A stretch of DNA of 64,000 nucleotides from Calditrichota bacterium (GCA_013150955.1 JAADJD010000002.1:28425-92424); one strand, 5' to 3'. Counted from the first letter of the stretch, positions 3,583 to 45,924 are shown. Notes: a model not told the origin generated them from the letters alone. Numbers and translations: made by a program.

Positions 3583-3599
3583 AAATAAAGGTGATTAAA

Positions 3600-4274: not shown

Positions 4275-4275
4275 A

Positions 4276-5079
4276 ATGGCCAAACAAATGATTGACGAAG
4301 CTAATTTTTCCATTGAGCTGCCAGAAAATATTTCGACGTTAAAAATAAAACACCATGCGGTTCAATATTCTGTGGTTGGCAAACCGCTTACGATTTATCT
4401 TAATAATAGTGAAAGAAATGCGAATTTGTGGAAAATCCCGGACGAGATGCCGGATTGGTACAGTAGCAATCTGGAAAAATTGGAAATAAATCTTGAAAAT
4501 GGGAAAATTTACTCCAGAGCAATTATTGAAGAAGAATTGGATGGTGACTTAGCCGAAGGCCAGGAATATTATATTCGTTATTTTCTAAAAACTAGTGAAA
4601 GCTCTGGAATCATTGGCGAAGTAGTTGATGAAATTGATCGTTACTTGATTAAATTTAAAATTGACTATATTGATAATGAAAACTCCCAGTCCATTGAATT
4701 CTTTGTTCCAAACTCGGTTTACAAATATTTGCTTGGCTTTGATATTTCACAACCTGTAATGTGGGTCAGCAATTTAGTACTTGAGCCACCAACAACCACT
4801 CCATCTGACCCGGAGGATGATCCATTTACACGATTTTTCCATCGTCTTTATAACTTGATTATTACTGGTGAATCGTCACCTGTTACAGGAGATCCCTGGC
4901 AAATTCTTGCTTACTCAAAAATTATTAACCGAAATACACCAAGAAACTATAGTGAAGATTTAAATCCTTTTATTGAGAATGATTTGGCCTTAATTAAAAA
5001 TATTTCTGAACCCGATGTGTTAAATCATGATTCACTTTACCCAACAAGGGTGAGTGCAATATTTGAGAGTTTTGGATAG
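4276..5079 (+). CDS. Unrecognised partner protein with DDPFTRFF motif (cassette copy 1, gene B)
   Basis: A 267-residue protein without signal peptide or membrane segment. I do not recognise the family. It is clearly homologous along most of its length to the protein at 23619-24440. Shared blocks are EGQEYYIRY, VVDEIDRYLI, VPNSVYKYLLGFD, a PSDPEDDPFTRFFHRLY core near residues 175-193, KIINRNTP and a DxLYPT end. Start ATG 4276 follows gene A directly (stop TAA at 4272-4274). The same A-B order occurs in both copies, so the two products probably work together, perhaps as a chaperone or cargo partner of the exported protein; that is inference. The local sequence is AT-rich compared with the second copy. 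Confidence 0.8.
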   Translation: MAKQMIDEANFSIELPENISTLKIKHHAVQYSVVGKPLTIYLNNSERNANLWKIPDEMPDWYSSNLEKLEINLENGKIYSRAIIEEELDGDLAEGQEYYIRYFLKTSESSGIIGEVVDEIDRYLIKFKIDYIDNENSQSIEFFVPNSVYKYLLGFDISQPVMWVSNLVLEPPTTTPSDPEDDPFTRFFHRLYNLIITGESSPVTGDPWQILAYSKIINRNTPRNYSEDLNPFIENDLALIKNISEPDVLNHDSLYPTRVSAIFESFG

Positions 5080-5095
5080 AAATTGAATTTTATTT

Positions 5096-5267
5096 AAACC
5101 CAGATTATGCAATAGCCTACGAATTACACGAATTAAAACGAATAAGAATAATAAAATCCATTTGATAATATCTGGATGAAAATGTGTTTTATGGTTTATT
5201 CACGATTTTGTAGATATTTTTTGGTTTCATTCGTGTGATTCGCGGTTTAATGCATTATTTTGGTTAA
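5096..5267. repeat. Dispersed ~170-bp inverted-end repeat, copy R1 (forward)
   Basis: This is the reference copy of a family seen at least nine times in the window. One end reads AACCCAGATTATGCAATAG, followed by CGAATTACACGAAT. The other end, read as its complement, is AACCCAAATAATGCATTAA followed by CGCGAATCACACGAAT, so the ends are imperfect inverted repeats of about 37 bp. The centre carries ATCTGGATGAAAATG and a CGATTTTGTAGATATTTTT block. It has no coding potential and starts just after the stop codon of the preceding gene. It resembles a MITE or a large REP-type element. Confidence 0.85.
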
Positions 5268-5395
5268 ATTGCAATTATTAATTGGAGTAGATTTTTTTTC
5301 TGAAATTATTTACCATGTTAATCATAGGTTTATTAAGATTTGGTAGTGCGTTCGGGAGTTTTTTTAATTTTACCCTGATAAAATCAGGACAACTA

Positions 5396-6180
5396 TATTC
5401 CTTCCCATTCATAAAGGATGGGGAGCGACCAAAAATCGAAAATTAAAAATCCGCAATCAGAAATCCGCAATTCCACTCCTCATTAGGAACACGCCCACCC
5501 AACGCGTTGATCCAATTCGTAAATTGAATTTCCCTGGCTATCTTTGCCCTACAGGCAAAGCAGGGTATCGCTGTTGGGGTTTCGTGTCCCCACGCGTTGC
5601 GTGGGGCTAACCTCTTTTTGCCCTTCGGGCAAATCGTTTCCACCAATGGCCCCACCTTCCGGAACGTAAACTCAGACCTCAGACCTCCATCCCGGAAATT
5701 TGCCCCCAAATTCGCAATCCGACATCCGAAATCCCAACCCCCTTCCGCCCCACAGGGGCACAATACGGTAGCCCGGAGCAACGCTCCGGGGATCGGAGAG
5801 ATTCACCAAAAAACACATGCGCCCTGTAAGGGCATAATCACAAACAAATGTGGCAACAACCTGAAACCGTCCCCCAGATTCGAAATCCGAAATCCAAAAT
5901 CCAAAATCCAAAATCATTTCCGGTTGTCCTTCAGACAACGCGGTGGGAATGATGGTGGCGCCATATATACTCCACGCGTTGCGTGGGGCTAACCTCTGTT
6001 TGCCCTTCGGGCAAATCGTCTCCACAGATAGCCATGTGGTTTCAATCCGGCCGGATGGTGTCCAATTATGAATCCAGTTTACATCCCCAGTAAATTCCCC
6101 TCTAAATCCAAAATTCGAAATCCGCAATCCGAAATCCGAAATTCACAATCCGTAATTTCCAAACATTCATTTGATTTCTG
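5396..6180. repeat. Gene-free mosaic of short palindromes and AATCCGAAATCC tracts
   Basis: No convincing gene is present. Short hairpins with 2-5 base loops recur: CACGCGTTGCGTGG, TTTGCCCTTCGGGCAAA, GCCCTGTAAGGGC, CCCGGAGCAACGCTCCGGG. A block of about 54 bp (CACGCGTTGCGTGG ... GGGCAAATCG) occurs twice, at 5590-5643 and 5972-6025. Between them lie degenerate tracts of the type AAATCCGAAATCCAAAATCC (about 5431-5475, 5697-5737, 5876-5920 and 6107-6158). The open frames across this stretch are by-products of the repeats. Confidence 0.75.
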
Positions 6181-6216
6181 GAGAACATGCGATGAAGTTG
6201 GAACCAGAATGTAAGA

Positions 6217-6263
6217 AACCCGTGTTATCCCGACAGGAGTCGGGACGTCCTAAACCCCTTCGA
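6217..6263 (-). pseudogene. tRNA-Glu remnant, copy 2 (distal)
   Basis: Read on the minus strand, this stretch keeps the D-arm side (AAGGGGTTTAGGACG) and part of the T-arm (CACGGGTTT) of the tRNA-Glu at 6440-6512. The anticodon arm is replaced by the palindrome TCCCGACTCCTGTCGGGA, and both acceptor strands are gone. It is not expected to give a functional tRNA. Confidence 0.6.
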
Positions 6264-6282
6264 CTCTCTGGGTAAAAAGAAA

Positions 6283-6304
6283 GCCCGAAGGTTGTCCTTC
6301 GGGC
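6283..6304 (-). terminator. Rho-independent terminator behind the tRNA-Glu remnant
   Basis: The stem GCCCGAAGG/CCTTCGGGC has a 4-base loop. On the minus strand it is followed by TTTCTTTTT. It sits 8 bases beyond the remnant at 6313-6375, in the same arrangement as tRNA-Glu and its terminator. Confidence 0.7.
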
Positions 6305-6312
6305 ATATATCG

Positions 6313-6375
6313 TAGCGCGTACGGGATTCGAAGCCGTGTTATCCCGACAGGAGTCGGGACGTCCTAAACCCCTTC
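6313..6375 (-). pseudogene. tRNA-Glu remnant, copy 1
   Basis: The 3' acceptor strand and T-arm of the intact tRNA-Glu are kept (TAGCGCGTACGGGATTCGAA on the plus strand) apart from one base (GAAGCC instead of GAACCC). The D-arm side AAGGGGTTTAGGACG is also kept. The anticodon arm is exchanged for the palindrome TCCCGACTCCTGTCGGGA and the 5' acceptor strand is lost. The following terminator is retained, so this looks like a decayed tandem duplicate of tRNA plus terminator. Confidence 0.7.
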
Positions 6376-6407
6376 TAAAGCATCCCTCATTCCTGCCTGT
6401 AAAAAAT

Positions 6408-6433
6408 AGGCCCACCTTTATTTTGGTGGGCCT
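6408..6433 (-). terminator. Rho-independent terminator of tRNA-Glu
   Basis: The stem AGGCCCACC/GGTGGGCCT has an 8-base loop and is followed on the minus strand by ATTTTTT. It begins 7 bases after the tRNA-Glu 3' end. Confidence 0.85.
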
Positions 6434-6439
6434 TAATTG

Positions 6440-8523: not shown

Positions 8524-8684
8524 GGGCTGCTCCCAATTATGATTCGATGAAATATGATATCGCCCCGCCGATAAATACAAGCGTTTGTTCTGGATTGGTG
8601 AAGGATTCCTGAACAAAAGGTCTGCTCATCTGGAAGGAATCCCGATAGGTGAACACTTCCCATTTTTTAAGTAAACACCTGATA

Positions 8685-8852
8685 AACCCAAATAAAGCGT
8701 TAAACCACGAATCACGCGAATGAATTCGAAAAAAATCAACAAGGTAGCGAATATATCCGGGAAAACATTTTCATCCAGATAGAATCCAGCGCATTTTATT
8801 ATTTTTATTGGTGTTAATTCGTGTAATTCGTAGGCTAATTCGTAATCTGGGA
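8685..8852. repeat. Dispersed ~170-bp repeat, copy R2 (reverse)
   Basis: Reverse orientation of the R1 family: it starts AACCCAAATAAAGCGTTAAACC and ends CGTAATCTGGG, with CATTTTCATCCAGATAG in the centre. It lies in the divergent gap between aspA and the sigma gene. The rest of 8524-8970 shows no gene. Confidence 0.85.
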
Positions 8853-8971
8853 TAAATAAAAAGTACCCTGGAAATGACTGAAAACCAGGATCAGGAAAAA
8901 TTGTGCCGGCCGATTGGCTCGAATGGATCCGTGTTCGATGGTTCCTGTGTTTAATCCAATTTTAAAATTTG

Positions 8972-9001
8972 TGCAAGTTTTTTTGAAGCGCTCTGTCTAA
9001 T
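8972..9001 (+). promoter_or_regulatory. Predicted ECF-type promoter P1 (sigma gene)
   Basis: TGCAAG at 8972-8977 and GTCTAAT at 8995-9001 are separated by 17 bases. The same two boxes with the same 17-base gap recur at 9604-9633 before the anti-sigma gene. A GTC-type -10 box is typical of ECF sigma targets, so autoregulation by the downstream sigma factor is inferred. The expected start of transcription is near 9008, giving a leader of about 23 bases. Confidence 0.7.
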
Positions 9002-9030
9002 ATGTATTGAATGATTTGCTCAGGAGGCGA

Positions 9031-9597
9031 ATGACCCGGAAAGTCCAGACACCGACGGCGGTGGATTTTGAAACGCTATACCGCGATTACGGCCGTTCTG
9101 TTTTGAATCTGGTTTACCGGATGACCGGTGACGAGGAAGTGGCGCGGGATTTAACTCAGGACATTTTCTACAAAATTTATACCCGATTGGACGAATTTGA
9201 AGGACGGTCCCGGATTTACACCTGGATTTATCGCATTGCGGTGAATCATGTACTGAATTATTTGAAACGCGAACGCCGCCGCAAATGGGTGGAGCTGTTA
9301 GAGAAGCGCACCAGCGAAATATTTCAGGAGGCTTCAGAACGGGTGGAATGGAAAGTACCGCCGGAATCGCCCGATGCCCGAATGGAAAGGCACCAGCGGG
9401 AAGCCATTATCTGGCAAATGATTCAGCAATTGCCCGATAAACTAAAACTCCCGTTTGTGTTGCATCGGTATGAGCAGATGTCCTACAAAGAAATTGCGGA
9501 AATTCTGGAGCTGAGCGTTTCGGCTGTGGAGGCCCGCATTTACCGGGCCGGGAAACAGCTGGTTAAAAAACTGGAACCCTGGCTGGGGAAAATATGA
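9031..9597 (+). CDS. ECF-family RNA polymerase sigma factor
   Basis: A 188-residue group 4 sigma factor. Region 2 covers about residues 12-85 (VLNLVYRMTGDEEVARDLTQ, TWIYRIAVNHVLNYLKRE). Region 4 covers about 125-180 (LPFVLHRYEQMSYKEIAEIL, VSAVEARIYRA) and has the helix-turn-helix. ATG 9031 is preferred because AGGAGG lies just before it. The TTG at 9007 would fall at the predicted transcription start and the ATG at 9002 runs into a stop. It heads an operon with a membrane anti-sigma factor and two LTxxQ periplasmic proteins, which suggests control of an envelope or metal stress response. Confidence 0.93.
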   Translation: MTRKVQTPTAVDFETLYRDYGRSVLNLVYRMTGDEEVARDLTQDIFYKIYTRLDEFEGRSRIYTWIYRIAVNHVLNYLKRERRRKWVELLEKRTSEIFQEASERVEWKVPPESPDARMERHQREAIIWQMIQQLPDKLKLPFVLHRYEQMSYKEIAEILELSVSAVEARIYRAGKQLVKKLEPWLGKI

Positions 9598-9603
9598 ATC
9601 GGT

Positions 9604-9633
9604 TGCAAGTTTTGAAGATGAAAGGTGTCTAAT
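9604..9633 (+). promoter_or_regulatory. Predicted ECF-type promoter P2 (anti-sigma gene)
   Basis: TGCAAG at 9604-9609 and GTCTAAT at 9627-9633, separated by 17 bases, repeat the boxes and spacing of P1. It lies between the sigma stop codon and the anti-sigma start. The predicted transcription start is near 9640, which argues for ATG 9662 rather than ATG 9638 as the anti-sigma start. Confidence 0.65.
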
Positions 9634-9661
9634 CTTAATGAAACAAAAAGCGAGGCAGATT

Positions 9662-10123
9662 ATGCCTGGACATGTTCGAAAGCATGTAGTGGATTACACG
9701 ATGGGACGGTTACCCTCGCATAAAAAACGGCGCGTAATCGAACATCTCCGGGATTGTCCCGAATGTCGGCAATATTTTGAAGCGGTTGCCCGATTATTTT
9801 CCCCGCCAGAGGACACGGAACGCTACCCGCTGGAACCGGATCCCTTCCTGCTTACCCGCATCCGGGAACGGAAAATTGCTGCGGAAAAAACGCCGCTTAC
9901 GGAACCGTCATCCGCAGCCGGGTTGCGCTGGATTAACTGGGGGATATTGGTCGGCTTGGCTCTGCTGGTGGGCGTCTCCATTACCCGGTTTACCGATCGT
10001 ACCGACTGGGAATCCTATTTCATCGTGACTCAGATGCAGGAAGCCCTGAATTATGGAGATGACATGCTCACTCAGCAGGTGGTTGAACCGTTTGTTGACT
10101 CAAAAATCGAGATGCAGCCATGA
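9662..10123 (+). CDS. Zinc-finger anti-sigma factor, membrane-bound
   Basis: A 153-residue protein with an N-terminal cytoplasmic anti-sigma zinc motif, H28-x3-C32-x2-C35 (HLRDCPEC). One membrane segment follows near residues 90-108 (GILVGLALLVGVSIT), then a periplasmic tail of about 45 residues. Such proteins hold the cognate ECF sigma factor inactive at the membrane until a signal arrives. ATG 9662 has CGAGG six bases upstream and lies about 22 bases after the predicted P2 start; ATG 9638 would add 8 residues. The next gene overlaps by 4 bases (ATGA), so translation is coupled. Confidence 0.82.
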   Translation: MPGHVRKHVVDYTMGRLPSHKKRRVIEHLRDCPECRQYFEAVARLFSPPEDTERYPLEPDPFLLTRIRERKIAAEKTPLTEPSSAAGLRWINWGILVGLALLVGVSITRFTDRTDWESYFIVTQMQEALNYGDDMLTQQVVEPFVDSKIEMQP

Positions 10124-10683
10124 AATTAAAAGTCATCGTTGGAATTCTGGTGTTTTTAATCGCCGTGAATCTGGCCACACTGGGGTCATACATCTATTAC
10201 CGCTGGCAGGAACAGAAACAGATGAACCGATTTCAGGAGCTTGTGGGCCGGGATGGGATGTTGCACCGGCCTGGTAGGCGTGGCCCCATACCGCGGATTC
10301 GACTGAAGCCTGATCAAAAGCAGCAATTGCGTCATTTAATGCAAAATCTCCAGCGACAACTGGCACCGGATTATCAGGAGATGCAGCAATATCAGGAAAA
10401 GGTGTTTCAGGCGCTGGTTGCCGATCGTCCCCAATTGGATTCCATTCAACACTATTTGAAGGCCATTCAGGATATTCAATTTCGTATCAAATGGGCAACC
10501 GTTCGCCAATTGCAACAGGCCCGGTCATTCCTGAGTGAAGAACAATTCCGGCAGCTGGTGCGGGCAGCGGTGATGCTGCCAGAAGGAGGCCGGCGCCACT
10601 GGCATCGTCCGGGACGCCTGCACGGTGGAGCAGGAATGAACAATCCAATAATGAACAATCCAATTAAAATAAAGGAGGATTAA
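10120..10683 (+). CDS. Membrane-anchored periplasmic LTxxQ-like protein (ZraP/CnrX-type sensor candidate)
   Basis: A 187-residue protein with one N-terminal hydrophobic segment (residues about 4-25), then a helical periplasmic part. Two LTxxQ-like motifs are visible: LKPDQKQQL near residue 65 and LSEEQFRQL near 140. The region between is rich in Gln and charged residues, as in CpxP/ZraP/metal-resistance periplasmic proteins. The last 25 residues are His/Gly/Asn-rich (HWHRPGRLHGGAGMNNPIMN), which might bind metal. It overlaps the anti-sigma gene by 4 bases and is probably a signal sensor or modulator for it; that role is inferred. Confidence 0.75.
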   Translation: MKLKVIVGILVFLIAVNLATLGSYIYYRWQEQKQMNRFQELVGRDGMLHRPGRRGPIPRIRLKPDQKQQLRHLMQNLQRQLAPDYQEMQQYQEKVFQALVADRPQLDSIQHYLKAIQDIQFRIKWATVRQLQQARSFLSEEQFRQLVRAAVMLPEGGRRHWHRPGRLHGGAGMNNPIMNNPIKIKED

Positions 10684-10685
10684 CC

Positions 10686-11156
10686 ATGCGTCGTGTTGTG
10701 TTCTTTAGTGTGTGGGTGTTACTATGGGTAGGAACCCTGAGCATTTTTGCCCAACCATCGAAACCCGGTCTGGGTAAAGACATGATGTGGCTATACCGCT
10801 TGAATCTGACCGAGGAGCAGCAGGCCCGCATCATGGATCTTCGGTTGAAGCTACAAAAGGACATTGTGCCGTTGCAGGCCGATTTGAAGAAGCTGCGATC
10901 GGAATTGCACCTGGCTTTGACGCAGGATCCGTTTAATGAAGGGAAGGTGAAGAAACTGGTGGCCGCCATTGCCGAGAAACAACAGGCCATTCATTTAAAA
11001 CGGGTGTTGCACAAGCGGCAGATTCGGGATGTGTTAACTCCAGAACAGCGGAAGCAATTTGATCTGCGCATTCTTGCCGGCCCGAATGGCATGGGGAGAC
11101 ATGGCAAGGGAAAACACCATCCCGAACCGCCCCATCGAGGAAAACCGTGTCGGTAA
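10686..11156 (+). CDS. Spy/CpxP-family periplasmic LTxxQ protein
   Basis: A 156-residue protein with an N-terminal signal peptide likely cleaved after FAQ (residue 23). The mature part has LTEEQQARI near residue 39 and LTPEQRKQF near 118, the repeated motif of the Spy/CpxP chaperone family, and a His/Pro/Lys-rich tail (HGKGKHHPEPPHRG). AAAGGAGG precedes the ATG. Family members act as periplasmic chaperones or stress sensors. As the last gene of the sigma operon it is a probable output or feedback element. A strong terminator follows. Confidence 0.83.
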   Translation: MRRVVFFSVWVLLWVGTLSIFAQPSKPGLGKDMMWLYRLNLTEEQQARIMDLRLKLQKDIVPLQADLKKLRSELHLALTQDPFNEGKVKKLVAAIAEKQQAIHLKRVLHKRQIRDVLTPEQRKQFDLRILAGPNGMGRHGKGKHHPEPPHRGKPCR

Positions 11157-11193
11157 TGCACCGATGCCCATGTTCACCACCCGAAAATTCAAG

Positions 11194-11226
11194 CGCCTGC
11201 CTGTTTCCGGGGCAGGCGTTTTTTTT
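11194..11226 (+). terminator. Rho-independent terminator of the sigma operon
   Basis: The stem CGCCTGCC/GGCAGGCG has a 9-base loop and is followed by eight T residues at 11219-11226. Confidence 0.92.
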
Positions 11227-11242
11227 ATGCCAGATGATGCCT

Positions 11243-11410
11243 GAAACCACGAGTTACTCGAATAATTTCTAAAAATGTCAACAAAATAGCGATTAAATCC
11301 CGGAACACATTTTTATCCGGATATAATCAAACGGATTTTATTATTTTTGTTCGCGTTAATTCGTGTCAGTTAATTCGTGTCATTCGTAGGCGAATGCATA
11401 ATCTGGGTTT
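11243..11410. repeat. Dispersed ~170-bp repeat, copy R3 (reverse)
   Basis: It runs from AAACCACGAGTTACTCG to GCATAATCTGGGTTT. The AATTCGTGTCA end is duplicated locally (AATTCGTGTCAGTTAATTCG). It lies directly after the sigma-operon terminator. Confidence 0.8.
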
Positions 11411-11437
11411 AACGTTATCATTTCTTTCCTGGCGCCG

Positions 11438-15232: not shown

Positions 15233-15620
15233 CCTGATAAAGCGTTAAACCACAAATCACGCGAATGAATTCGAAAAAAATCAACTAAATAGCGAATATA
15301 TCTGGGCAAATATTTTCATCCAGATAGAATCCAGTGCAATTTATTTTTTTTGGTACCCGTTGTGCTAATTCAGGACAAAGCAGGTGTTTAGAAAAACCGT
15401 TAATACGGTTAAGAATCAATTGGTTACGTTATCCATTTTCTCCTGGCTAAAACCAGGAGTTAATAGAATTTCTCATTCATTAACACCAGATTTATCTGGG
15501 TGGGCAACTCCTGTAGTAACAATAAGTTATAGAACCGTTTTAACGGTTTGGATTGTCTAATTAGCACAACGGGTTATTGGTGTTCATTCGTGTAATTCGT
15601 AGGCGAATGCATAATCTGGG
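15233..15620. repeat. Dispersed repeat, copy R4 (reverse), split by a 220-bp insertion
   Basis: Left part 15233-15354 (CGTTAAACCACAAATCACGCG ... ATCCAGTGCAATTTATTTTTTT). Right part 15575-15620 (TATTGGTGTTCATTCGTGTAATTC ... AATCTGGG). The parts join to one family copy if 15355-15574 is removed. Confidence 0.8.
15355..15574. mobile_element. 220-bp MITE-like element with 16-bp perfect terminal inverted repeats
   Basis: The left end ACCCGTTGTGCTAATT (15355-15370) and right end AATTAGCACAACGGGT (15559-15574) are exact inverted repeats. Inside are four further small palindromes: AACCGTTAATACGGTT, CTCCTGGCTAAAACCAGGAG, CCAGATTTATCTGG and AACCGTTTTAACGGTT. It has no coding capacity. It interrupts repeat copy R4. 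TTGGT occurs at both flanks (15350-15354 and 15577-15581) and could be a target duplication, but the match is not exact at the element border. No transposase is in the window. Confidence 0.7.
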
Positions 15621-18404: not shown

Positions 18405-18567
18405 AAGGGAAAGGGGGTGGACATCCCCTGTGCCGGTCGTGTTTAAAGATGAACGCCATGGGTGTTCTGGTGCGGGAGGCGCCGGTGATTCAGGAAAGGG
18501 GAGCACCGGCGGGATATGACCGTGGGTCTTTGAATAGTTGGGTTTGCCAGAAAAAGGGGTGCGAAAA

Positions 18568-20202
18568 TTGAACAGGAATGGGCAATCCGTGGAAGCACCG
18601 GGAGCGGGGAAAAAAGATTTACTGTTGCATTATCTGGCATTAGCCAGAGAGTTTCGCAACCAGCATCTTTATCAGAAGGCAGAGGCGGCCCTGAAACTGG
18701 CGCTGGAGAAATCCCCTCATCATCCCACCGTTTTGACCGCACTGGCCAATCTGTACATTAAAATGGGTTTTCTGGATCAGGCGTTAAAAATACTTAATCA
18801 ATTAATCCGGGAACATCCACGGCTGAAAAGTGCCCGTTTTTTACGGGGCAAGCTTTACCAGCGGCGCCATCAAATAGCCCGTGCAATTGAAGATTTTCAG
18901 GAAGCCCTGACCGGGAGCCACCGGGATGTGCCCATTTTAAATCGATTGATTCCCCTGTTGCTGGAAAGGAAGCAGCTGGATGCGGTACAACAGCTGATTC
19001 AGCGCTACCGATCCATCCTGCGGCAACCGGCGCTGATTCTGGAATGGGAAGCCCGTCTGTTGCAAGAAAAAGGACAATTGCAGGAAGCCGTGGAGAAAAT
19101 GCGTCAGGCGGTGATGCTGGCCCCGCACAATCGTTTTCTTCTGAAAAAGTATCTGAAAACGCTCATCCAGGCCAGCGATCGCGATCCGCTGCCGGCGTAT
19201 CAATCCCTGAAGGCATTCGTTCCGCAGCTGGCGGATCTGGAACCGGATGAACTCACCGAACTGGAAATCGAATTCCTGCTGAAGCGGGGCGATCGGGAAA
19301 TCGCATTGCAAAAATTGGATGCCTATTTAAAGCAGCATCCGCATGATTTTTATCATCGCAAACGGCGAGCGTTTTTATTGCTGGAGATGGGAAGGGAAAG
19401 GGAGGGGATTGAGGAACTCGTCCAGCTGTTTCGTGAACATCCGGAGGATGTGTATGTTCGGAATAAGCTGGAGCATTATTTTGTGGCAACCCATCAGATT
19501 GGCCGCTGGAAGTCCATCTTGAAGGAGGCGTTGATGACCACTGCCGGCCGCGGCGAGCTCTTTGGATACCTGCGGCGAAGCCGGCAGTTTACCGATTGGC
19601 TGGCTTATTCCCGTCTGGATATTTCCGACTATCTAAAACAGGTTAAGAAGCTGCCCATTGCCTTTCCCGTACTGGCCGATCCGACATACGCCAGGTTGCC
19701 CCTGTATGCCCTGGAGACGCTGGTGCATCAACTGGCATTGCACGACCGCATTCCCACACCTCAGGCACTGTGGGAGCTTCTGCGAAGGGAAAAAGAAAAG
19801 AAAGGCCATGTGCCGCCTTTTCAGCTGGAAGATCTGGAACTGGCCTATCCGGTCTGGTTATTTGCCATTCAATTTTATTATTTGTTTAAAGATGCAGGAG
19901 AACTGGTGCCCCGGTTCGTACCGTCCCTGTTTCAGCGCCAGCAGGTTGCGGTGATTCTGGAAAAAGACGATGTCCGGGTGCACCTGGATGTGGGCCATTT
20001 GATTCATCCCGACCGGCGGAAGCGCAAGCGGTTGATCAAAAAGGGGAGGATCTGGGTATATCGCTGGCCGGGGGATTTTCCAGTAATGACGCGGATTCGC
20101 CACATCCCATTTTACAGTGTGGAACAGGCGCGGCAGGCGGTACGGGAAATTCTGGATGCCATCGGGACGACTGCGGTTCGGATGGATGCGTCGCCGTCGT
20201 GA
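18568..20202 (+). CDS. TPR-repeat protein of unknown function
   Basis: A protein of about 544 residues with tetratricopeptide repeats in the first 300 residues (YQKAEAALKLALEKSPHHPTVLTALANLYIKMG, then LDQALKILNQLIREHP and further weaker repeats). The C-terminal third has no family I recognise; it ends in a basic stretch (DRRKRKRLIKKGRIW) and an RIRHIPFYSVEQARQAV block. No signal peptide is seen. TTG 18568 is favoured by AAGGGG upstream; TTG 18538 in the same frame is possible. It is probably a scaffold for protein contacts, and the partner is unknown. The palindromic repeat island begins directly after it. Confidence 0.7.
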   Translation: MNRNGQSVEAPGAGKKDLLLHYLALAREFRNQHLYQKAEAALKLALEKSPHHPTVLTALANLYIKMGFLDQALKILNQLIREHPRLKSARFLRGKLYQRRHQIARAIEDFQEALTGSHRDVPILNRLIPLLLERKQLDAVQQLIQRYRSILRQPALILEWEARLLQEKGQLQEAVEKMRQAVMLAPHNRFLLKKYLKTLIQASDRDPLPAYQSLKAFVPQLADLEPDELTELEIEFLLKRGDREIALQKLDAYLKQHPHDFYHRKRRAFLLLEMGREREGIEELVQLFREHPEDVYVRNKLEHYFVATHQIGRWKSILKEALMTTAGRGELFGYLRRSRQFTDWLAYSRLDISDYLKQVKKLPIAFPVLADPTYARLPLYALETLVHQLALHDRIPTPQALWELLRREKEKKGHVPPFQLEDLELAYPVWLFAIQFYYLFKDAGELVPRFVPSLFQRQQVAVILEKDDVRVHLDVGHLIHPDRRKRKRLIKKGRIWVYRWPGDFPVMTRIRHIPFYSVEQARQAVREILDAIGTTAVRMDASPS

Positions 20203-20254
20203 CCTCTCCTGCAGGACAACCAGGTCTGTGTCGTTCCGTTGCTGGGTAGGCTGC

Positions 20255-20575
20255 GCATGCCCGCCCCCGCTCGGAGAGCGGGGGCATTGTAGCACGACTC
20301 TCCAGAGTCGTTATCCCCGCTTTGCGGGGATTTTGAGCTCGCAATAAATTGAGAGGAGTCGAGTGGAATGTTATCCCACCCCTTCAGGGCGCACCCGTTC
20401 AGGAGAGCGGGGGTACAGGTTGTAACACGTCTCTCCAGAGTCGTTATCCCGCCATGGCGGGATTTTTACTGCTCGCTTCGCTCGCAGCCGATCGGAGAGC
20501 GGTGGTACAGCTGTACGAGTTAAGAGTGTAAGAGTTGAAGAGTTAAGAGTAAAGAGTTGTAGCACTAGGCGGAGA
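20255..20575. repeat. Palindromic-repeat island, left block
   Basis: The gap 20203-20628 has no gene. It carries the hairpin modules of the island: CCCCCGCTCGGAGAGCGGGGG, CGACTCTCCAGAGTCG, ATCCCCGCTTTGCGGGGAT, TCCCGCCATGGCGGGA and CTCGCTTCGCTCGCAG. After 20515 come short AGAGTTAAGAGT direct repeats. Confidence 0.8.
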
Positions 20576-20628
20576 GACTGATGACAAATAACTTTGTTAA
20601 AAATTACTCCGTAAACTGTGAGAGAGAA

Positions 20629-21915
20629 TTAAATTAAATAAATTGGTAAAAATAGAATTTTAGTACCATTGCATTGCATAGCATCCCAAAAATCCCTGGT
20701 AACAACAATTGCCCTGGTAGGCCTATACTCACGAATAAAACTGCGTAAACCAGCCGGAATTCTAACTACTTTTTGCTCACGAAATTTTACTTCAATGGGA
20801 ATAAGTTCATTCTCTTTAAAGACTAAAAAATCAACTTCTTGTTTATTTTTATTACGCCAGAACTTGATTTCCAGATCATTTCTTTTTTGTAATTGATTAA
20901 ACACAAAATTTTCAGCCAACTGCCCCCAAAAGAAATGATCCGGTTCGTAAGCAAATTTACCGCTAATGGCATTACAAAGACCAACATCCTCAAAATACAC
21001 TTTAGGCATTTTACTCAATTCCTTACGAATATTAGAATAATGTGGGAGCAAAAAACTCACTACAAAGGTACTCTCCAGAATAAAAGCATATCGTTCCACC
21101 GTTGGGCGAGAAAGCCCAATGGTATTGGAAATTTCTGAGATGTTCATCAAACTCCCGATTTGGGAAGCCAGAATTTTGGTGACTTTATTAAATTTGTCAA
21201 TGCTTTCGATGGAAAACAGGAAACGGATGTCCTTTTGAATGTAAGACGTGTAAATCTCGAATAAGGACTGTATACGCTCCTGCTGTTTGGTTAATAGAGT
21301 GGTTTCCGGGTACCCACCAAAACTTAAAAAGTCATAAATTTCATTTAATAACTCGCTGCGGATAGATGGAAGAATAAACGGTTGGTCCGGGAATTCGGAG
21401 AATACATCCACGTCCGACAAAACATTGTACAATTGCTGTTTTTGTTTAAAAAGCAGAAACTCCCGAAAGTTTAATGGATATAATCGATAAACCCGTTTGC
21501 GCCCAACCATGGAATCACTGAAAATATTTTTCAAACGCAACGAAGACGAACCAGAAACTATAAATTTTAAATTTTGATAATGGTCGAACATATATTTTAA
21601 CAAAGAAGCGGCGTTTTCCAGATACTGAATTTCGTCTAAAAATACGTAGCCCCGTTTTTCAGGATGCGGTAAATTTTGAATTAACTGACGAGCAACTAAG
21701 TCGTAATTGTTGAATTGAAAATTTTCGCGATGGATTGGATTCTCTAAATCAAAATATAGAGCATTAGTTTTAACTTCAGGTTCCTGCAAAAGCATTTTTA
21801 AAAGGGTTGTTTTGCCTGTACGGCGTGAGCCAATAAGGATGAGTACGTAAGGCGTGGTCAGTTCTTTCCTCAATGAATTTAAAATATCACGATTAAGGAA
21901 ATTTGTAATAGTCAT
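20629..21915 (-). CDS. AAA-family ATPase with C-terminal DUF4143 domain
   Basis: A 428-residue protein. Walker A is G29SRRTGKTT37 and Walker B is YVFLDEIQYL near residue 90; SGSSSLRLK near 122 may be sensor 1. The C-terminal part (about 200-400) is DUF4143-like, with a nuclease-fold-like EVDFLVFKENELIPIEVKF block. Such ATPases are widespread, often in accessory DNA, and their role is not settled; toxin-antitoxin or defence links have been suggested for some. The gene is clearly more AT-rich than its neighbours and is flanked by palindromic repeats on both sides, which suggests acquisition. Its start lies in an unusual hairpin (21916-21942). Confidence 0.87.
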   Translation of the reverse strand: MTITNFLNRDILNSLRKELTTPYVLILIGSRRTGKTTLLKMLLQEPEVKTNALYFDLENPIHRENFQFNNYDLVARQLIQNLPHPEKRGYVFLDEIQYLENAASLLKYMFDHYQNLKFIVSGSSSLRLKNIFSDSMVGRKRVYRLYPLNFREFLLFKQKQQLYNVLSDVDVFSEFPDQPFILPSIRSELLNEIYDFLSFGGYPETTLLTKQQERIQSLFEIYTSYIQKDIRFLFSIESIDKFNKVTKILASQIGSLMNISEISNTIGLSRPTVERYAFILESTFVVSFLLPHYSNIRKELSKMPKVYFEDVGLCNAISGKFAYEPDHFFWGQLAENFVFNQLQKRNDLEIKFWRNKNKQEVDFLVFKENELIPIEVKFREQKVVRIPAGLRSFIREYRPTRAIVVTRDFWDAMQCNGTKILFLPIYLI

Positions 21916-21942
21916 TTAGCAAAATCTCCGATATTTTGCTAA
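21916..21942 (-). promoter_or_regulatory. Inverted repeat enclosing the ribosome-binding site of the ATPase gene
   Basis: On the minus strand TTAGCAAAAT-ATCGGAG-ATTTTGCTAA directly abuts the ATG at 21915. The arms are 10 bp and perfect, and the 7-base loop contains GGAG. It could be a protein operator or an RNA hairpin presenting the ribosome-binding site. A second inverted repeat, GCTTAAT-TTCTG-ATTAAGC, lies at 21952-21970. Confidence 0.6.
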
Positions 21943-22035
21943 TAATTTATTGCTTAATTTCTGATTAAGCAAACGGAAATGAATCTGACTTAATGCTTAA
22001 TTCTTATACTCTTAATTTGGAAAGGATGGACAACC

Positions 22036-23600
22036 ACTCGGAGAGCAGGGGCATTGTAGCACGACTCTCCAGAGTCGTTAGTCCCGCGAAGCGGGGCTTC
22101 TTTTACAGCTCGCTGGCGCGAGCACCGACTCTGGAGAGTCGGGGTACTGGTTCCCAGGTTGAACGTGGGAACCAGGTACATAATGGGAGTTGTAGTGAAT
22201 GTTATCCCACCCCTTCAGGGTGGAAATGATGGATTGGTATTCTCTATCCCGGTGCGCTGCACCGGGCTACCCTCTTGTTGCGCCCCTTCAGGGCGCACTC
22301 ACTCAGAGAGCGGGGTACTGTAGCACGACTCTCCAGAGTCGTTAGTCCCGCGTTAGCGGGACTTCTATTTACAGCTCGCTGGCGCTCGCACCGACTCTGG
22401 AGAGTCGGGTTACTGGTTCTCAGGTTGAACGTGGGAACCAGGTCAATAGGAAGATTGAACTTTAGGATATCCCACCCCTTCAGGGTGGAAATGATGGATT
22501 GGTATTCTCTATCCCGGTGCGCTGCACCGGGCTACCCTCTTGCGCCCTTTCAGGGCGAATCCGCTCAGAGAGCGGGGGTATTGTAACACGACTCTCCAGA
22601 GTCGTTAGTCCCGCGTTAGCGGGGCTTATTTACTGCTCGCTGACGCTCGCACCCGCTCTGGAGAGCGGGGGTACAGTAGTACGACCCTCCAGATTCGTTC
22701 AGGCTGCTGCAGCCACCCGAGCAGCATTACCTGGTTCCCAAGTTAAACTTGGGAACCAGGAAGCAACAGATGCCTTAACATGTATAAGTTACCCCTGTCA
22801 CGGTTCGACCTGTCTGTCAGCCAGGCAAGCGAAGCTCACCGTGACAGGGAACATACCCGCGGGAAGAGCGGGGGTACCAGTTGTAGCACGACTCTCCAGA
22901 GTCGTGTAGGCTGCGACAGCAGCCTTCTTAAATTAAATTGCGCCCGGGCAAACATACTGCTCAGAGAACGGGGGTACAAAAAGCCCCCTCTCTTTGGGCG
23001 CAAAGAGAGGGGGCTTGGGGGTGCGTTTATTCTGCCTCTAAAACCGCTGAAGCGGTTAGTAATGTATCCGGTGCGCATCCGATCCACCGGCTTGAAAAGC
23101 CTGTGTTAATGAATACATTGCTCGCTACCGCTCGCACCCGCTCTGGAGAGCGGGGGTACCAGTTGTACCACGACTCTCCAGAGTCGTTTAGGCTGCTGCA
23201 GCAACCCGAGCAGCATTACCTGGTTCCCAAGTTAAACTTGGGAACCAGGAAAAATAGCTATATCGAACATTAAGATATCCCACCCCTTCAGGGTGAAATT
23301 AGTGTTTGGGTATTCTCTACTACCGGTGCATTGCACCGGGCTATCTTATGGCGCCCCTTTAGGGCGCCAACCGCTCGGAGAGCGGGGTTACAATTGTACC
23401 ACAACTCTCCAGAGTCGTTAGTCCCGCGTTAGGGGGACTTCTATTTACAGCTCGCTGGCGCTCGGAGAGCGGGGGTACCAGTTGTAGCACGACTCTCCAG
23501 AGTCGTTTAGGCTGCGGCAGCAGCCTAATTACCCCAAACTACACCCAGGCAAGCATACTGCTCGCTATCGCTCGCAACCGCTCGGAGAGCGGTGGTACGG
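22036..23600. repeat. Palindromic-repeat island, central block of ~263-bp hairpin units
   Basis: No gene is supported here. A unit of about 263 bp repeats from 22036, 22302 and 22563 (the last degenerate), with further rearranged pieces to 23600. In order, each full unit holds CGACTCTCCAGAGTCG, GTCCCGCGTTAGCGGGAC, a CTCGCTGGCGCTCGC block, CCGACTCTGGAGAGTCGG, an inverted repeat CTGGTTCCCA...TGGGAACCAG, CACCCCTTCAGGGTG, CCCGGTGCGCTGCACCGGG, GCGCCCCTTCAGGGCGC and a CCGCTCGGAGAGCGG module. At 22980-23030 is another hairpin, CCCCCTCTCTTTGGG with its complement. Confidence 0.85.
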
Positions 23601-23618
23601 TTTGTGGTGTTATAGGTA

Positions 23619-24440
23619 TTACAAAAAGTTTCTCATTGCAACCCTCACTGCTGTCGGGTAGAGCTCGTCCTGCTCCAGAACATCAGGCGTGGCAATGCCC
23701 TTGATAAGCACGAGCTGGTCAAGAAAAGGATTGGTGCCCTTGTAGCCCCAGGGCGTGTTTCTGTTGATGATTTTCGTGGTTGACTTGACAAGCCATGGGT
23801 CGCCCTCTATGGGATTTGTTTCGAACGTCTCAAGCATGTCGTAAAGCCGGACAAAAAAGCGCGTGAAAGGATCATCCTCATAATCAGACGGCTTCTCTGT
23901 TGGCGGCTCAAGCTTGAGATTATTGACCCAAACAACATTTGATGACGGGTCAAAACCCATAAGGTAATTATAAACAGAACCAGGAACGTAAAAGCTCGTT
24001 GTTTTGTCCTCGCCGTTATCCTTGTAGTCAATGTTGAGAGTTATCAAGTACCTGTCAATCTCATCAACCACTTTGGCAACAGTAAAATCATTATCGCCGT
24101 GCTTCAATTTGTAGCGAATCCAGTACTCCTGGCCCTCTGCATTCTGGCCGTTCGGGAGAGTGAGAGGAATTTTGACATCAGTGCCAATGCCATTCCCATC
24201 GAGAACCATTTGCAGACCGTCAAGATTCTCACTGTACCACCTTCCTTTATTGGGGCCTGCTTTGTAAGGAGCAGGCAGCCATAATGTAGGATCGCTACCC
24301 TCGCTTGTCAAGTAAATTGTTAAAAAACGCCCTACCTGTGAGGAATCGGTCCTGTGGTTTTTCCACTGCGGGCTCGTGCTGACATTATCAGAATCAACAC
24401 CGATCACGGCCGAATCGGCAACTTTACCTAACGGTTTCAT
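23619..24440 (-). CDS. Unrecognised partner protein with DDPFTRFF motif (cassette copy 2, gene B)
   Basis: A 273-residue protein homologous to the one at 4276-5079, with the same blocks in the same order: EGQEYWIRYKLKHG, VVDEIDRYLI, VPGSVYNYLMGFD, PSDYEDDPFTRFFVRLYD near residues 180-197, KIINRNTPWGY and DELYPTAVR. No signal peptide or membrane segment is seen, and the family is unknown to me. It starts 10 bases after gene A ends. Its base composition is richer in GC than copy 1, so the copies are old or came from different sources. The strongest conservation is the acidic-aromatic core, suggesting a binding site. Confidence 0.8.
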   Translation of the reverse strand: MKPLGKVADSAVIGVDSDNVSTSPQWKNHRTDSSQVGRFLTIYLTSEGSDPTLWLPAPYKAGPNKGRWYSENLDGLQMVLDGNGIGTDVKIPLTLPNGQNAEGQEYWIRYKLKHGDNDFTVAKVVDEIDRYLITLNIDYKDNGEDKTTSFYVPGSVYNYLMGFDPSSNVVWVNNLKLEPPTEKPSDYEDDPFTRFFVRLYDMLETFETNPIEGDPWLVKSTTKIINRNTPWGYKGTNPFLDQLVLIKGIATPDVLEQDELYPTAVRVAMRNFL

Positions 24441-24450
24441 TGCATCCTCT

Positions 24451-25158
24451 CTATTTTCGGTACACCATTTTGCGCGTCTGGCGGCCCTGGGGCGTATCCA
24501 GCGCTAAAAAGTACACGCCCGTGGCTAATTCGGGCGCCGGGTGCCAGAGCAGTGTGTGTTCCCCGGCCGGCTGGCGGCCCTGTTGCAAAACGTCCACCAC
24601 CTGGCCGCGCGTGTTGTAAACCGCCAGGCGCACCGGCATGGCCCGGGGCAGCCGGTAGCGCAGGCGCGTGGCGCCGTTAAAGGGATTGGGCGCATTGGGC
24701 AGCAGTTTAAAATGCGCGGGCAGCTCGGGCGTGGGCCTTTCTATGGCCAGCGGCTCGTCGGCAAACACAAATTCCACCGTGTCCGATGACACTGCGCCCA
24801 GGGTCTGGATGCGCACCTCCACCTGCCAGGTGCCCGGGTTCTGGGCGTCTTCTTCCTGGCTAAAATCGATCAGCAAATTGCTGGCGTTGTGGTTCACGGC
24901 AAAGTAGAGGGGCTGGCCGGGATCGGTGTAAGCTATGTACTGGTGCAGGTAGGCTTCGGGCTTTACGTTGGGAATGTGGCCCATGTAAGTATCCAGCGTA
25001 ACATCGGGCATTTCGTTTTCAAAGGAAACGCTGGCCGGTGCAGCGAGTCCGGCGGTTTGCAGGTGCACTTTGCTCTTGGTACGCAGCAGGATGTTGAGCA
25101 GGGGCTGGCTCAATACAATGGTAGCGGCGGCATTTTTTAAAAATTGTCGTCGGTTCAT
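24451..25158 (-). CDS. Tat-signal protein with T9SS-like C-terminal sorting domain (cassette copy 2, gene A)
   Basis: A 235-residue protein. The N-terminus MNRRQFLKNAAATIVLSQP is a good twin-arginine signal. The middle domain (about residues 45-140) matches copy 1: a PDVTLDTYMGHIPNVKPEAY block and YIAYTDPGQPLYFAV. The end (about 150-235) is a sorting domain (NAPNPFNGATRLRYRLP, GVYFLALD). ATG 25158 is chosen because AAAGG lies nine bases upstream and it puts the RR motif at the start; the frame extends further to 25251. The upstream gap to 25400 has no gene. Unlike copy 1, no LVIVD gene precedes it. Confidence 0.85.
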   Translation of the reverse strand: MNRRQFLKNAAATIVLSQPLLNILLRTKSKVHLQTAGLAAPASVSFENEMPDVTLDTYMGHIPNVKPEAYLHQYIAYTDPGQPLYFAVNHNASNLLIDFSQEEDAQNPGTWQVEVRIQTLGAVSSDTVEFVFADEPLAIERPTPELPAHFKLLPNAPNPFNGATRLRYRLPRAMPVRLAVYNTRGQVVDVLQQGRQPAGEHTLLWHPAPELATGVYFLALDTPQGRQTRKMVYRK

Positions 25159-25331
25159 GGAGTTACCTTTATTTTGGTAATGTTCCGGGCCATTGTCCAT
25201 TTTACTGCCTGTTGTTTTATTCAAAATAATTTTTCTGTTTGATTTTGTCAAATATTATGCCAGAATTTTTTCGGAAATGAGGCCAATGTTTTCAGGCTTT
25301 CTGGATAGTTCAGGCAGAGTGATGGTTGCAC

Positions 25332-25371
25332 TGTTGCAACATATAGTGGGGGTTATATTGCAATTTTGCAA
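25332..25371. promoter_or_regulatory. Cluster of TTGCAA palindromes upstream of cassette copy 2
   Basis: TGTTGCAACA (25332-25341) and TTGCAATTTTGCAA (25358-25371) lie about 175-215 bases before the gene A start. The spacing would suit a pair of operators. No promoter box could be fixed with confidence. Confidence 0.3.
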
Positions 25372-25384
25372 CATTTATTTTTTT

Positions 25385-26000
25385 AGCTCGCTAACGCTCA
25401 CGCTCGGAGAGCGGGGTTACAATTGTAGCACGACTCTCCAGAGTCGTTAGTCCCGCGTTAGCGGGGCTTATTTACTGCTCGCTGGCGTTCGCACCGACTC
25501 TGGAGAGTCGGGTTACTGGTTCCCAGGTTGAACGTAGGAACCAGGTCAATAGGAAGATTGAATTTTAGGATATCCCACCCCTTCAGGGTGAAAATGATGG
25601 ATTGGTATTCTCTATCCCGGTGCGCTGCACCGGGCTGCCCTCTTGCGCCCCTTCAGGGCGCACCCCGCCGGAGATCGGGGGTACTGTAGCACGACTCTCC
25701 TGAGTCGTTAGTCCCGCGTTAGCGGGACTTCTATTTACAGCTCGCTGGCGCTCGCACCGACTCTGGAGAGTCGGGTTACTGGTTCCCGGGTTGAACGTGG
25801 GAACCAGGTCAATAGGAAGATTGAATTTTAGGATATCCCACCCCTTCAGGGTGAAAATGATGGATTGGTATTCTCTACCCCGGTGCGCTGCACCGGGCTA
25901 CCCTATGGCGCCCCTTCAGGGCGCACCCGCTCAGAGAGCGGGGGTACGGTAACACAGCTTTCCGGGACGTTAATCCCGCAGAGCGGGACTTTTTTCAGCC
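25385..26000. repeat. Palindromic-repeat island, right block of ~263-bp hairpin units
   Basis: Two full units start at 25402 and 25664 and a third begins at about 25927. They have the same hairpins in the same order as 22036-22563, so the period (about 263 bp) is kept across the intervening cassette. The last part (25940-26000) degenerates into TCCCGCAGAGCGGGA. Confidence 0.85.
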
Positions 26001-26205
26001 CATCATTTCCCATTCCAATGCCAAAGTGAATTTTTGGTTGAAAAATGCCACATTTATGTTATTATTTGATTGTATGGAATTTAGCGCGAATGACATGTCC
26101 CGGGAATTCCCGCGACGACGATGACCATCGCAAAAGGATTTTGGGTGCAATGGAAATCGCACGGGACAAATTTACAACCGGCACTGATTGGAGGGAGAAA
26201 TTAGG

Positions 26206-27354: not shown

Positions 27355-29526
27355 ATGAAAAGAGAATTTTTACGTCGACTGGTGATTGGCATTGGGGCCG
27401 GGATTGTCAGTGCCATTCTGGTCTGGATCTTTACCCAATGGTTATTTGAATCCTTTTTTTACCGCTTCGAGGCGGCCAGCTACGATTTGCGGTTGCGATA
27501 CGACTGGAAATTGCGTATGCCGGATGATCCGGCCGACTTCAAGCCCATCGAAGAGGTTATCATTGTGGATGTGGATGAACGCAGCATTCAGAAGCTGGGA
27601 AAATTTCACCTCTGGCCACGAACCTACTGGGCCAAGGCCCTGAAATTTTTACAGGACAGTGGAGTGCGATTGGTGGGATTGGATTTTCTCTTCGATGCGG
27701 ATATTCGCCATCCCGATGAAGATCAAATGTTTATCGAATCCATTCAGGAATTGCAAAAGGTGGTGCTGGCCTTTTTTATGGCCGAGGCCGATAGCGAACA
27801 TTTCCTTTATGCCATGTCCAGCGAACCTGCGGGACTGGATGTCGATCGATTTATCGTAAATGTTCCACCGGAGTTAAAATATCGGTTACTTGCGGGCGAC
27901 CGGATGGATCCGCAGTTTGTACATCTGCTAAACGCCGCCACGGCTCTGGGATTTGTTAATATTTTCCCGGACGAGGATGGTATCTTCCGGCGCATCCCCA
28001 TGTTTATGCGGTTTAATGAAAACGTGTATCCCGCCTTCTCGGTTGCCATGGCCATGCGCCTGCTCAACGTTCGGGACGTGCAGTATCTGGAAAACGAACA
28101 GGTCGTGCAATTGCTGGCAGGGGACGGTCGCCAGGTGCGCATACCGGTGGATCAGCAGGGGAAATTTTTAATTTACTACCAGGGGCCCTTTCAAACCTTC
28201 CGCTACATTCCTTTTTATGATTTGTTGATGGGTTATGTGGATCCCAATTATTTGAAGGATAAAATCGTGCTGGTGGGATCATCGGCTCCGGGACTGTTTG
28301 ATCTCCGGGCCACGCCTCTGCAAAGCCGCTTCCCCGGTGTAGAGGTCAACGCCAATGTGTTGTATCAAATTCTTAAGGGAAAATTTATTCGCGAATGGCA
28401 ACCCACCTACAAATTTCTGTTCTACATGCTGGTGGGCATTCTGGTGGGATTTCTGGTGCTGTTGTTGCGTCCACTGGGCGGCATTCTGGCTTCTGCATTT
28501 ACCGTGTTGCTGATTTTCCTGGGATCGTTTTATGCCCTTTCCAGCTACAGTTTGTGGGTACCATTCATCGGCCCGGTGCTGGTGGTGCTGTTCACCTACA
28601 TGTTAAATTACGCCTACCGCTACATCGTGGAGGAAAAGGACAAGCGTCAGATCAAGCGCATATTCTCTCACTACCTGTCCTCCAGTGTGGTGGAAGAGCT
28701 GTTGAAGGATCCGGATAAAATCAAACTGGGTGGCGAAAAGAAGGTCTGTACGGTCATGTTTTCGGATCTGGCGGGATTTACATCCCTTTCGGAAAAGATG
28801 GATCCAGAAGACCTGGTGAAGGTGCTGAACAATTATTTAACGGAGATGACCAACATTATTTTCGAAAACGAGGGGATGCTGGATAAATACGAAGGCGATG
28901 CCATCATGGCGGTTTTTGGGGCACCGGTCGATATTGGCAATCATGCGGTAAAGGCCTGTCGGGCGGCGCTGCAAATGCAACGGCGTCTGCAGGAGATTCG
29001 GGAAGAATGGAAAAAGCTGGGGTATCCCAGCCTGCACCAGCGCATCGGCATCAACACCGGCCCGATGGTGGTGGGCAACATGGGTTCCGAAACGCGGTTT
29101 GATTATACCGTGATGGGTGATTCGGTTAATCTGGGTTCCCGGCTGGAAGGCGCAAACAAAATGTATGGTACCCAGATTATGATCGGCGAGGAAACCTACA
29201 AGATGGCCAGAGACCACATCGTGGTGCGGCAGCTGGATCTGCTGCGGGTGAAAGGAAAAACCGAGCCGGTGAAAGTATTCGAGCTGGTGGCGCTGAGAAA
29301 AGATCCTCTGGATCCCCACATAAAACAGCTGCTGGAGGTCTTTCAAAAAGGCTATCAACATTACCTGGCTCAGAACTGGGAATGGGCCATGCGTTATTTT
29401 AAACAGGCGTTAGAGATTGTTCCCGATGATGTGCCCTCAAAACTGTACCTACAACGCTGCCAGGAATTTAAAGAGAATCCACCGGGCAAAGATTGGGATG
29501 GGGTGTATACCCTGCGGACAAAATAA
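27355..29526 (+). CDS. CHASE2-domain class III adenylate/guanylate cyclase
   Basis: A 723-residue membrane protein. An N-terminal membrane segment (about 9-29) is followed by an extracytoplasmic CHASE2 sensor domain (about 40-330) and membrane helices (about 340-420). The class III cyclase domain (about 455-635) has metal Asp residues in FSDLAGFTSL and in KYEGDAIMAVFG, plus DYTVMGDSVNLGSRLEG with the Asn and Arg of the transition state. A short TPR-like tail (QKGYQHYLAQNWEWAMRYFKQAL) closes it. The Lys before the second Asp fits adenine specificity, so cAMP is the likely product. The signal sensed by CHASE2 is unknown. Confidence 0.92.
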   Translation: MKREFLRRLVIGIGAGIVSAILVWIFTQWLFESFFYRFEAASYDLRLRYDWKLRMPDDPADFKPIEEVIIVDVDERSIQKLGKFHLWPRTYWAKALKFLQDSGVRLVGLDFLFDADIRHPDEDQMFIESIQELQKVVLAFFMAEADSEHFLYAMSSEPAGLDVDRFIVNVPPELKYRLLAGDRMDPQFVHLLNAATALGFVNIFPDEDGIFRRIPMFMRFNENVYPAFSVAMAMRLLNVRDVQYLENEQVVQLLAGDGRQVRIPVDQQGKFLIYYQGPFQTFRYIPFYDLLMGYVDPNYLKDKIVLVGSSAPGLFDLRATPLQSRFPGVEVNANVLYQILKGKFIREWQPTYKFLFYMLVGILVGFLVLLLRPLGGILASAFTVLLIFLGSFYALSSYSLWVPFIGPVLVVLFTYMLNYAYRYIVEEKDKRQIKRIFSHYLSSSVVEELLKDPDKIKLGGEKKVCTVMFSDLAGFTSLSEKMDPEDLVKVLNNYLTEMTNIIFENEGMLDKYEGDAIMAVFGAPVDIGNHAVKACRAALQMQRRLQEIREEWKKLGYPSLHQRIGINTGPMVVGNMGSETRFDYTVMGDSVNLGSRLEGANKMYGTQIMIGEETYKMARDHIVVRQLDLLRVKGKTEPVKVFELVALRKDPLDPHIKQLLEVFQKGYQHYLAQNWEWAMRYFKQALEIVPDDVPSKLYLQRCQEFKENPPGKDWDGVYTLRTK

Positions 29527-29699
29527 TCCGAGATTATGCGATAGCCTACGAATTACACGAATTAACGCCAATGAAAATAATAAAATGCATTTTATTCTAT
29601 CTGGATGAAAAAATTTTTCCAGATATGTTAGCTATCTTGTTGATTTTTTTCGAATTCATTCGCACGATTCGTGGTTTAACGCATTATTTCGGATTAACC
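29527..29699. repeat. Dispersed ~170-bp repeat, copy R5 (forward)
   Basis: It begins at the base after the cyclase stop codon (CGAGATTATGCGATAGCC) and ends AACGCATTATTTCGG. It fills the gap between the convergent cyclase and apgM genes. Confidence 0.85.
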
Positions 29700-38262: not shown

Positions 38263-38424
38263 ATAATCCCAGATTATGCGATTGACCACGAATAACACGA
38301 ATGAACACAAATAAAATCCATTGGATGAGATCTGGATGAAAATTGGTTCTGGTGTTTCTTCGCGATTTTGTGGATATTTATAGAGTCATTCGTGTGATTC
38401 GCGGTTAATGCATTATTTGGGATA
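38263..38424. repeat. Dispersed ~170-bp repeat, copy R6 (forward)
   Basis: It starts ATAATCCCAGATTATGCG and ends GCATTATTTGGGATAAC, with ATCTGGATGAAAATTGG in the centre. It fills most of the gap 38206-38518 between the hybrid kinase and the TrkA-like gene. Confidence 0.85.
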
Positions 38425-38518
38425 ACACCAGTCGATTCCGCGGAATCTCACAAACCGATTGCAAATATTCCCGGTAGCCATTAATTTCAATTCTTCTAAT
38501 ATGTTAGAAATTGGAGCG

Positions 38519-45921: not shown

Positions 45922-45924
45922 GTT

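Follow-up and report, generated by a model that had tools for sequence, protein, structure and literature searches.

A repeat of about 263 bp, made of many hairpins, lies on both sides of a two-gene cassette in the genome of a Calditrichota bacterium. What kind of element is it, why is the order of its hairpins kept, and is it connected with the presence of the cassette? The window, that is the whole 64,000-nucleotide stretch analysed, contains four full units, starting at 22036, 22302, 25402 and 25664, with pairwise identities of 88–95%. TRF places them in two arrays, at 22034–22674 (period 265, score 980) and 25401–25999 (period 263, score 939), and self-BLAST of the window aligns 22037–22631 with 25403–25995 at 89% identity. 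The initial annotation had listed six units; those starting at 22563 and 25927 are truncated. Its two groups of units between 22036 and 25940 stand within a wider array, which also includes partial units at 20262–20518 and shuffled modules at 22674–23598. Cassette copy 2 (23619–25158, minus strand) does lie between the two groups, and a DUF4143 gene likewise lies between array pieces. The features of the locus are as follows.

20203–26187, no strand: lineage-specific island, between a TPR gene (18538–20202) and an aminotransferase gene (26188/26206–27354)
20262–20518, plus strand: incomplete units with modules Z A .. A Z, past the DUF4143 gene (82–94% matches to 22034–22085 and 22545–22684, and module scan)
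20629–21915, minus strand: AAA_14/DUF4143 ATPase gene (PF13635, 4e-40; PF13173, 5.8e-32), between array pieces
22036–22301, plus strand: full unit 1
22302–22562, plus strand: full unit 2
22563–22674, plus strand: unit cut short after ~110 bp, with no hairpins beyond Z A B C a
22675–23598, plus strand: modules A, K, D, Z, C, E, F and G, shuffled and incomplete (module scan)
23619–24440, minus strand: second gene of cassette copy 2 (273 aa), without Pfam or NCBIfam match
24451–25158, minus strand: first gene of cassette copy 2, for a secreted protein that has a T9SS type A sorting domain (TIGR04183, 6.8e-08), 39% identical to copy 1
25388–25401, plus strand: partial module C, array edge (from the sequence)
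25402–25663, plus strand: full unit 4
25664–25926, plus strand: full unit 5, with RF01687 at 25879–25923 (38.8 bits against a cut-off of 37)
25927–25999, plus strand: terminal unit stub, 73 bp (TRF and module scan)

Hairpin modules were located by a Hamming scan of the window and of sampled array loci elsewhere. That hairpin order is kept, as the initial annotation had proposed, holds for the full units only: each has nine modules in the order Z A B C a D E F G, whereas in 22674–23598 the modules are partial and the order is lost. The modules are:

Hairpin Z: CCGCTC..GAGCGG
Hairpin A: GTAGCACGACTCTCCAGAGTCGT
Hairpin B: AGTCCCGCGTTAGCGGGACT
Hairpin C: GCTCGCTGGCGCTCGC
Hairpin a: inverse of A
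Hairpin D: CTGGTTCCC..GGGAACCAG
Hairpin E: CCACCCCTTCAGGGTGG
Hairpin F: CCCGGTGCGCTGCACCGGG
Hairpin G: GCGCCCCTTCAGGGCGC

The density of perfect hairpins with stems of at least 7 is 14.4 per kb within the array pieces and 0.34 per kb elsewhere in the window, whose arrays reach ~1.6 kb per gap. A full unit folds far better than its shuffles on both strands (z −6.8 as RNA, −7.3 and −7.4 as DNA). The shuffled region also holds a 16-bp perfect palindrome, AAGCCCCCTCTCTTTGGGCGCAAAGAGAGGGGGCTT, at 22981–23016, with no counterpart in the full units.

The first half of the unit is an inverted pair of GTAG-tagged palindromes, A and a. With this pair inverted inside each unit and the units in tandem, the pairing feature of REP/BIME elements is present. 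GTAG is found at the feet of 176 of 439 hairpins (40%) against 1.8% of random positions and is the commonest of all tetranucleotides there; hairpins inside one array are not independent counts, and by unique hairpin sequence the figure is 48/161. In the window, A and F carry the tag and D, E and G do not. A GTAG foot is what characterises the REPs that RAYTs recognise (PMC3733652, PMC8266576). In the second half, E-F-G match the hairpins on either side of a TnpA-Y1 subclass 1.2 gene and overlap the Rfam family Acido-Lenti-1. The unit is thus a BIME-like composite of two REP families.

Comparison with relatives shows that the whole arrangement is an addition to this lineage. A same-genus genome (G001) is collinear with window 6437–43293 (37 kb), mostly at 72–78% nucleotide identity. 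Between matched ends at 20150 and 26221 lie 6.07 kb here and about 120 bp in G001, in which the TPR and aminotransferase genes are adjacent. They are also adjacent in five further family- or order-level relatives (G003, G002, G008, G013 and G012), and the difference is therefore an insertion in this genome: a 6-kb block, made up of the units, the DUF4143 ATPase gene and the cassette, has split an operon that is intact in relatives. G001 was searched for a Y1 transposase or RAYT, for RF01687, for the unit and for the cassette, and none of them was found. In another relative (L058, G007:C522), the same operon has a Y1 transposase gene at 4603–4947, where it separates the aminotransferase gene from the cyclase gene. 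The window also contains a separate dispersed repeat of ~170 bp, in both orientations and 75–93% identical, at 5094–5267, 8685–8853, 11244–11413, 15237–15351, 29522–29697, 38287–38425, 45923–46098, 46276–46437 and 48353–48523. Two of its copies, at 8685 and 11244, flank a segment (about 8617–11420) with no match in the same-genus genome, and similar sequence occurs at about 350–510 of an array locus on contig C66 of the host genome (L011, G000:C66).

The fixed hairpin order was taken by the initial annotation to exceed what REP scatter would give, and it does; it is best read as the product of local tandem duplication. In the host genome (4.07 Mb, 66 contigs), the unit has more than 160 matches over many contigs, mostly between ORFs, and a search of these contigs found no full-length match outside the island. 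Among the sampled loci, A/C/Z-type and E/F/G-type arrays are separate elsewhere and combined only in this island, and unit length differs from array to array, from about 110 to 630 bp, with locus-specific orders. These other lengths and orders are the ground for reading the fixed order as a local event, not as one genome-wide element. A single fixed unit throughout the genome is ruled out by the varying periods and orders and by the separation of A-type from F/G-type modules. Mixing of modules without fixed order elsewhere, which the initial annotation had set against a true unit, was found in part: the nine-hairpin unit is absent elsewhere, and its modules are separate families, each locus with its own order.

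Only two Y1 transposase genes are present in the genome, on contigs C13 and C35, and both lie inside hairpin arrays. Against the REP_Tyr_transpos model the C13 gene scores 71 bits, short of the 80-bit cut-off; its product, a class-2 RAYT, shows the Y---NP motif of that class as YILENP. GTAGCCGCGGGCTTTACGCCCGCG REPs surround the gene, and the flanking GTAGCCGCGGGC REP recurs at nine A-type array loci. The A palindrome was not found beside the C13 gene, where only its usual partner REP is present. The C35 gene is IS200-like, with the Y motif YVQNQEQHH, and lies within a 393-bp hairpin array; the CCCCACGC hairpins that flank it recur in many F/G-type arrays. Subclass 1.2 of TnpA-Y1 is defined by the HuH motif DH[IV]H, WQ and Y---Q--HH in a protein of about 148 aa, and the C35 protein has DHVH, WQ and Y---Q--HH in about 150 aa. 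This subclass has been recorded as lacking REPs (PMC6006769).

The C35 protein has homologs in named genomes, among them Verrucomicrobia, Planctomycetes, Hydrogenedentes and Desulfococcaceae, and all 18 intact ones carry the Y---Q--HH motif. Hairpins such as ATAG-CCCAGGGCAACGCCCTGGG lie near their genes, mostly at roughly 35–150 bp, and on both sides of the gene at 12 of 20 loci. Hairpin density at subclass 1.2 loci is 3.2 per kb within 400 bp and 0.59 per kb beyond 800 bp. We take these flanking hairpins to correct what has been published on the subclass, not to exclude the genes from it.

The F+G hairpins supply the further connection with Acido-Lenti-1 (RF01687). Against a gathering cut-off of 37 bits, the five F+G copies in the window score 38.8 (the only one above), 36.4, 33.9, 33.0 and 23.2; the host genome has 65 matches, nine of them over the cut-off and several beside the C35 gene. 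In the named genomes, 12 of 14 RF01687 matches lie at most 250 bp from a subclass 1.2 gene, where 2.0 would be expected (p about 1e-5), and the hairpins are commonly inverted on the two sides of the gene. Calditrichota relatives with RF01687 beside a Y1 gene are found at G015:C34, G024:C117, G008:C36, G008:C107 and G016:C69. Three relatives (G002, G003 and G025) have one to four weak RF01687 matches each with no Y1 gene detected, and some, for example G019, G026 and G027, have a Y1 gene without RF01687. Since RF01687 clusters at genes of a subclass published as REP-less, Acido-Lenti-1 is read here as a REP-like element of subclass 1.2, which the enzyme would have moved. The link between this Rfam family and a transposase subclass is new. 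It ties a listed 'sRNA' to DNA-cutting enzymes reported to have no repeat partner, and would change the annotation of the family.

The Rfam listing of Acido-Lenti-1 as an sRNA also fits a different account, in which the hairpins persist because they terminate transcription or stabilise neighbouring mRNAs, and mobility is irrelevant. The strong folding on both strands, the 19 terminator-like sites against 7.9 ± 3.2, many of them B hairpins, and the similar filling of convergent, tandem and divergent gaps by arrays all agree with it. Most hairpins, however, have no run of T, the arrays are lineage-specific and tandemly amplified with locus-specific units, and hairpins cluster at transposase genes in several phyla. 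As a full explanation this is improbable, while a secondary RNA or terminator role may exist alongside mobility.

The cassette itself bears on whether the array served in copying it. Copy 2 comprises two genes and retains about 230 bp of its own upstream DNA; copy 1 (3591–5079) is the end of a three-gene operon, in the part of the window (1–6436) left unmatched by the collinear same-genus contig. Searches for homologs of the 273-aa protein returned copy 1 only, and none in 29 relatives. The direct repeats of the 263-bp unit around copy 2 have the geometry that recombination could give, and the initial annotation had proposed copying by recombination through the array. Yet the two copies are only 39% and 49% identical in protein, and self-BLAST of the window gives no DNA match between them, against 88–95% identity among the units. 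Copy 1 moreover has no units of the 263-bp type, and only a different, F/G-type hairpin stretch lies downstream of it (5510–6060). The protein divergence and the lack of a DNA match mean that copying via the arrays is not supported, and a recent duplication of the cassette by recombination between units is the least probable account of the locus, hardly credible. The F/G-type stretch adjoins a tRNA-like sequence. Units facing each other across copy 2 are 94–95% identical, the same as neighbouring units; this fits a cassette that may have split a pre-existing array, and other histories fit too.

Other accessory genes lie between similar arrays elsewhere, as the initial annotation had suggested checking. 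Among the sampled array loci, eight single ORFs have close hairpin clusters on both sides: the two Y1 transposases, three AAA_14/DUF4143 ATPases, a subtilase, a POT transporter and a 170-aa ORF. Three of the seven DUF4143 genes in the genome are thus between arrays, for which a simple binomial gives about 5e-7, a value to be read knowing that the loci were chosen around arrays, that the data which suggested the idea also served to test it, and that the test ignores a shared preference of accessory genes and REPs for variable regions. The three proteins are 21–26% identical, and are therefore separate genes; their being copies of one mobile gene is ruled out on the same ground. Judged by eye, the insertion points of the window and C66 genes fit an a|A junction and that of the C47 gene does not, so that a shared insertion point is not claimed. 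At the C66 locus, an AbiEii (type IV toxin–antitoxin) gene at 2910–3665 is also between hairpin arrays and adjoins the array-embedded DUF4143 gene.

Arrays may plausibly act as landing sites, the other proposal of the initial annotation: the insertion into an operon intact in relatives and the three embedded DUF4143 genes are compatible with it. A stronger version, in which REP arrays act as gene-capture platforms that repeatedly take up unrelated accessory genes (the three DUF4143 ATPases, the AbiEii gene and the secreted-protein cassette), through recombination between units or single-strand transfer at REP ends, would give an integron-like outcome without an integrase. We regard it as rather unlikely. 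If REP arrays do hold accessory genes above expectation, they would represent an overlooked route of bacterial gene gain.

A true integron-like system, with the hairpins as attC-type sites and the genes between them as cassettes moved by an integrase, is very unlikely. Differing accessory genes between similar folded repeats would suit it, as would a gene on contig C33 that resembles an integron integrase but is broken and split. That remnant (L144, G000:C33:87101–87860; TIGR02249, 160 bits below cut-off) is the best match in the host genome, where no TIGR02249 integrase exceeds the cut-off, and it has two TAG stops and split frames and lies near the end of another contig. attC sites are imperfect, with one per cassette; here each gap has several tandem perfect palindromes with the REP tag GTAG. 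The 230 bp of upstream DNA kept by the cassette and the presence of the Y1 transposases themselves among the array-nested genes also argue against it.

Taken as a whole, the locus is probably a composite of two REP families from two Y1 transposases, amplified locally within an inserted island. Each transposase, a single-strand HUH nuclease, would have spread its own palindromes, and the two hairpin kinds would have come side by side at the island locus. The composite may then have been duplicated in tandem by unequal recombination or slippage, fixing the hairpin order locally. Accessory genes may have entered, or stayed in, the array-filled gap because arrays are dispensable, recombinogenic DNA. 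The outcome is two REP families merged in one amplified unit, inside an island that breaks a conserved operon.

Among known systems, the closest are the GTAG REP/BIME elements and RAYT REPtrons (PMC3733652, PMC8266576), with which the arrays share intergenic GC-rich palindromes, the GTAG foot, inverted pairs, tandem BIMEs, and a high copy number of dispersed, mostly extragenic matches. A RAYT gene amid its own REPs is matched here by C13, without A itself adjacent. In contrast to REP/BIME elements, the unit is about 263 bp long with nine hairpins from two REP families, and the arrays are large, several of them enclosing accessory genes. The C35 gene agrees with TnpA-Y1 subclass 1.2 (PMC6006769) in motifs and length and, unlike the published description, is flanked, here and in other phyla, by inverted hairpins of a repeated family. 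The F+G hairpins match the Acido-Lenti-1 model (RF01687; PMC2864571) end to end; that family is listed as a candidate structured RNA or sRNA, whereas here it appears as a REP-like DNA element beside a transposase. A further parallel may lie in the TIR families of TIRYT genes, for example in Acidobacteria, where the Y1 transposase genes have long inverted repeats at their borders and these repeats recur in the genome (PMC3733652).
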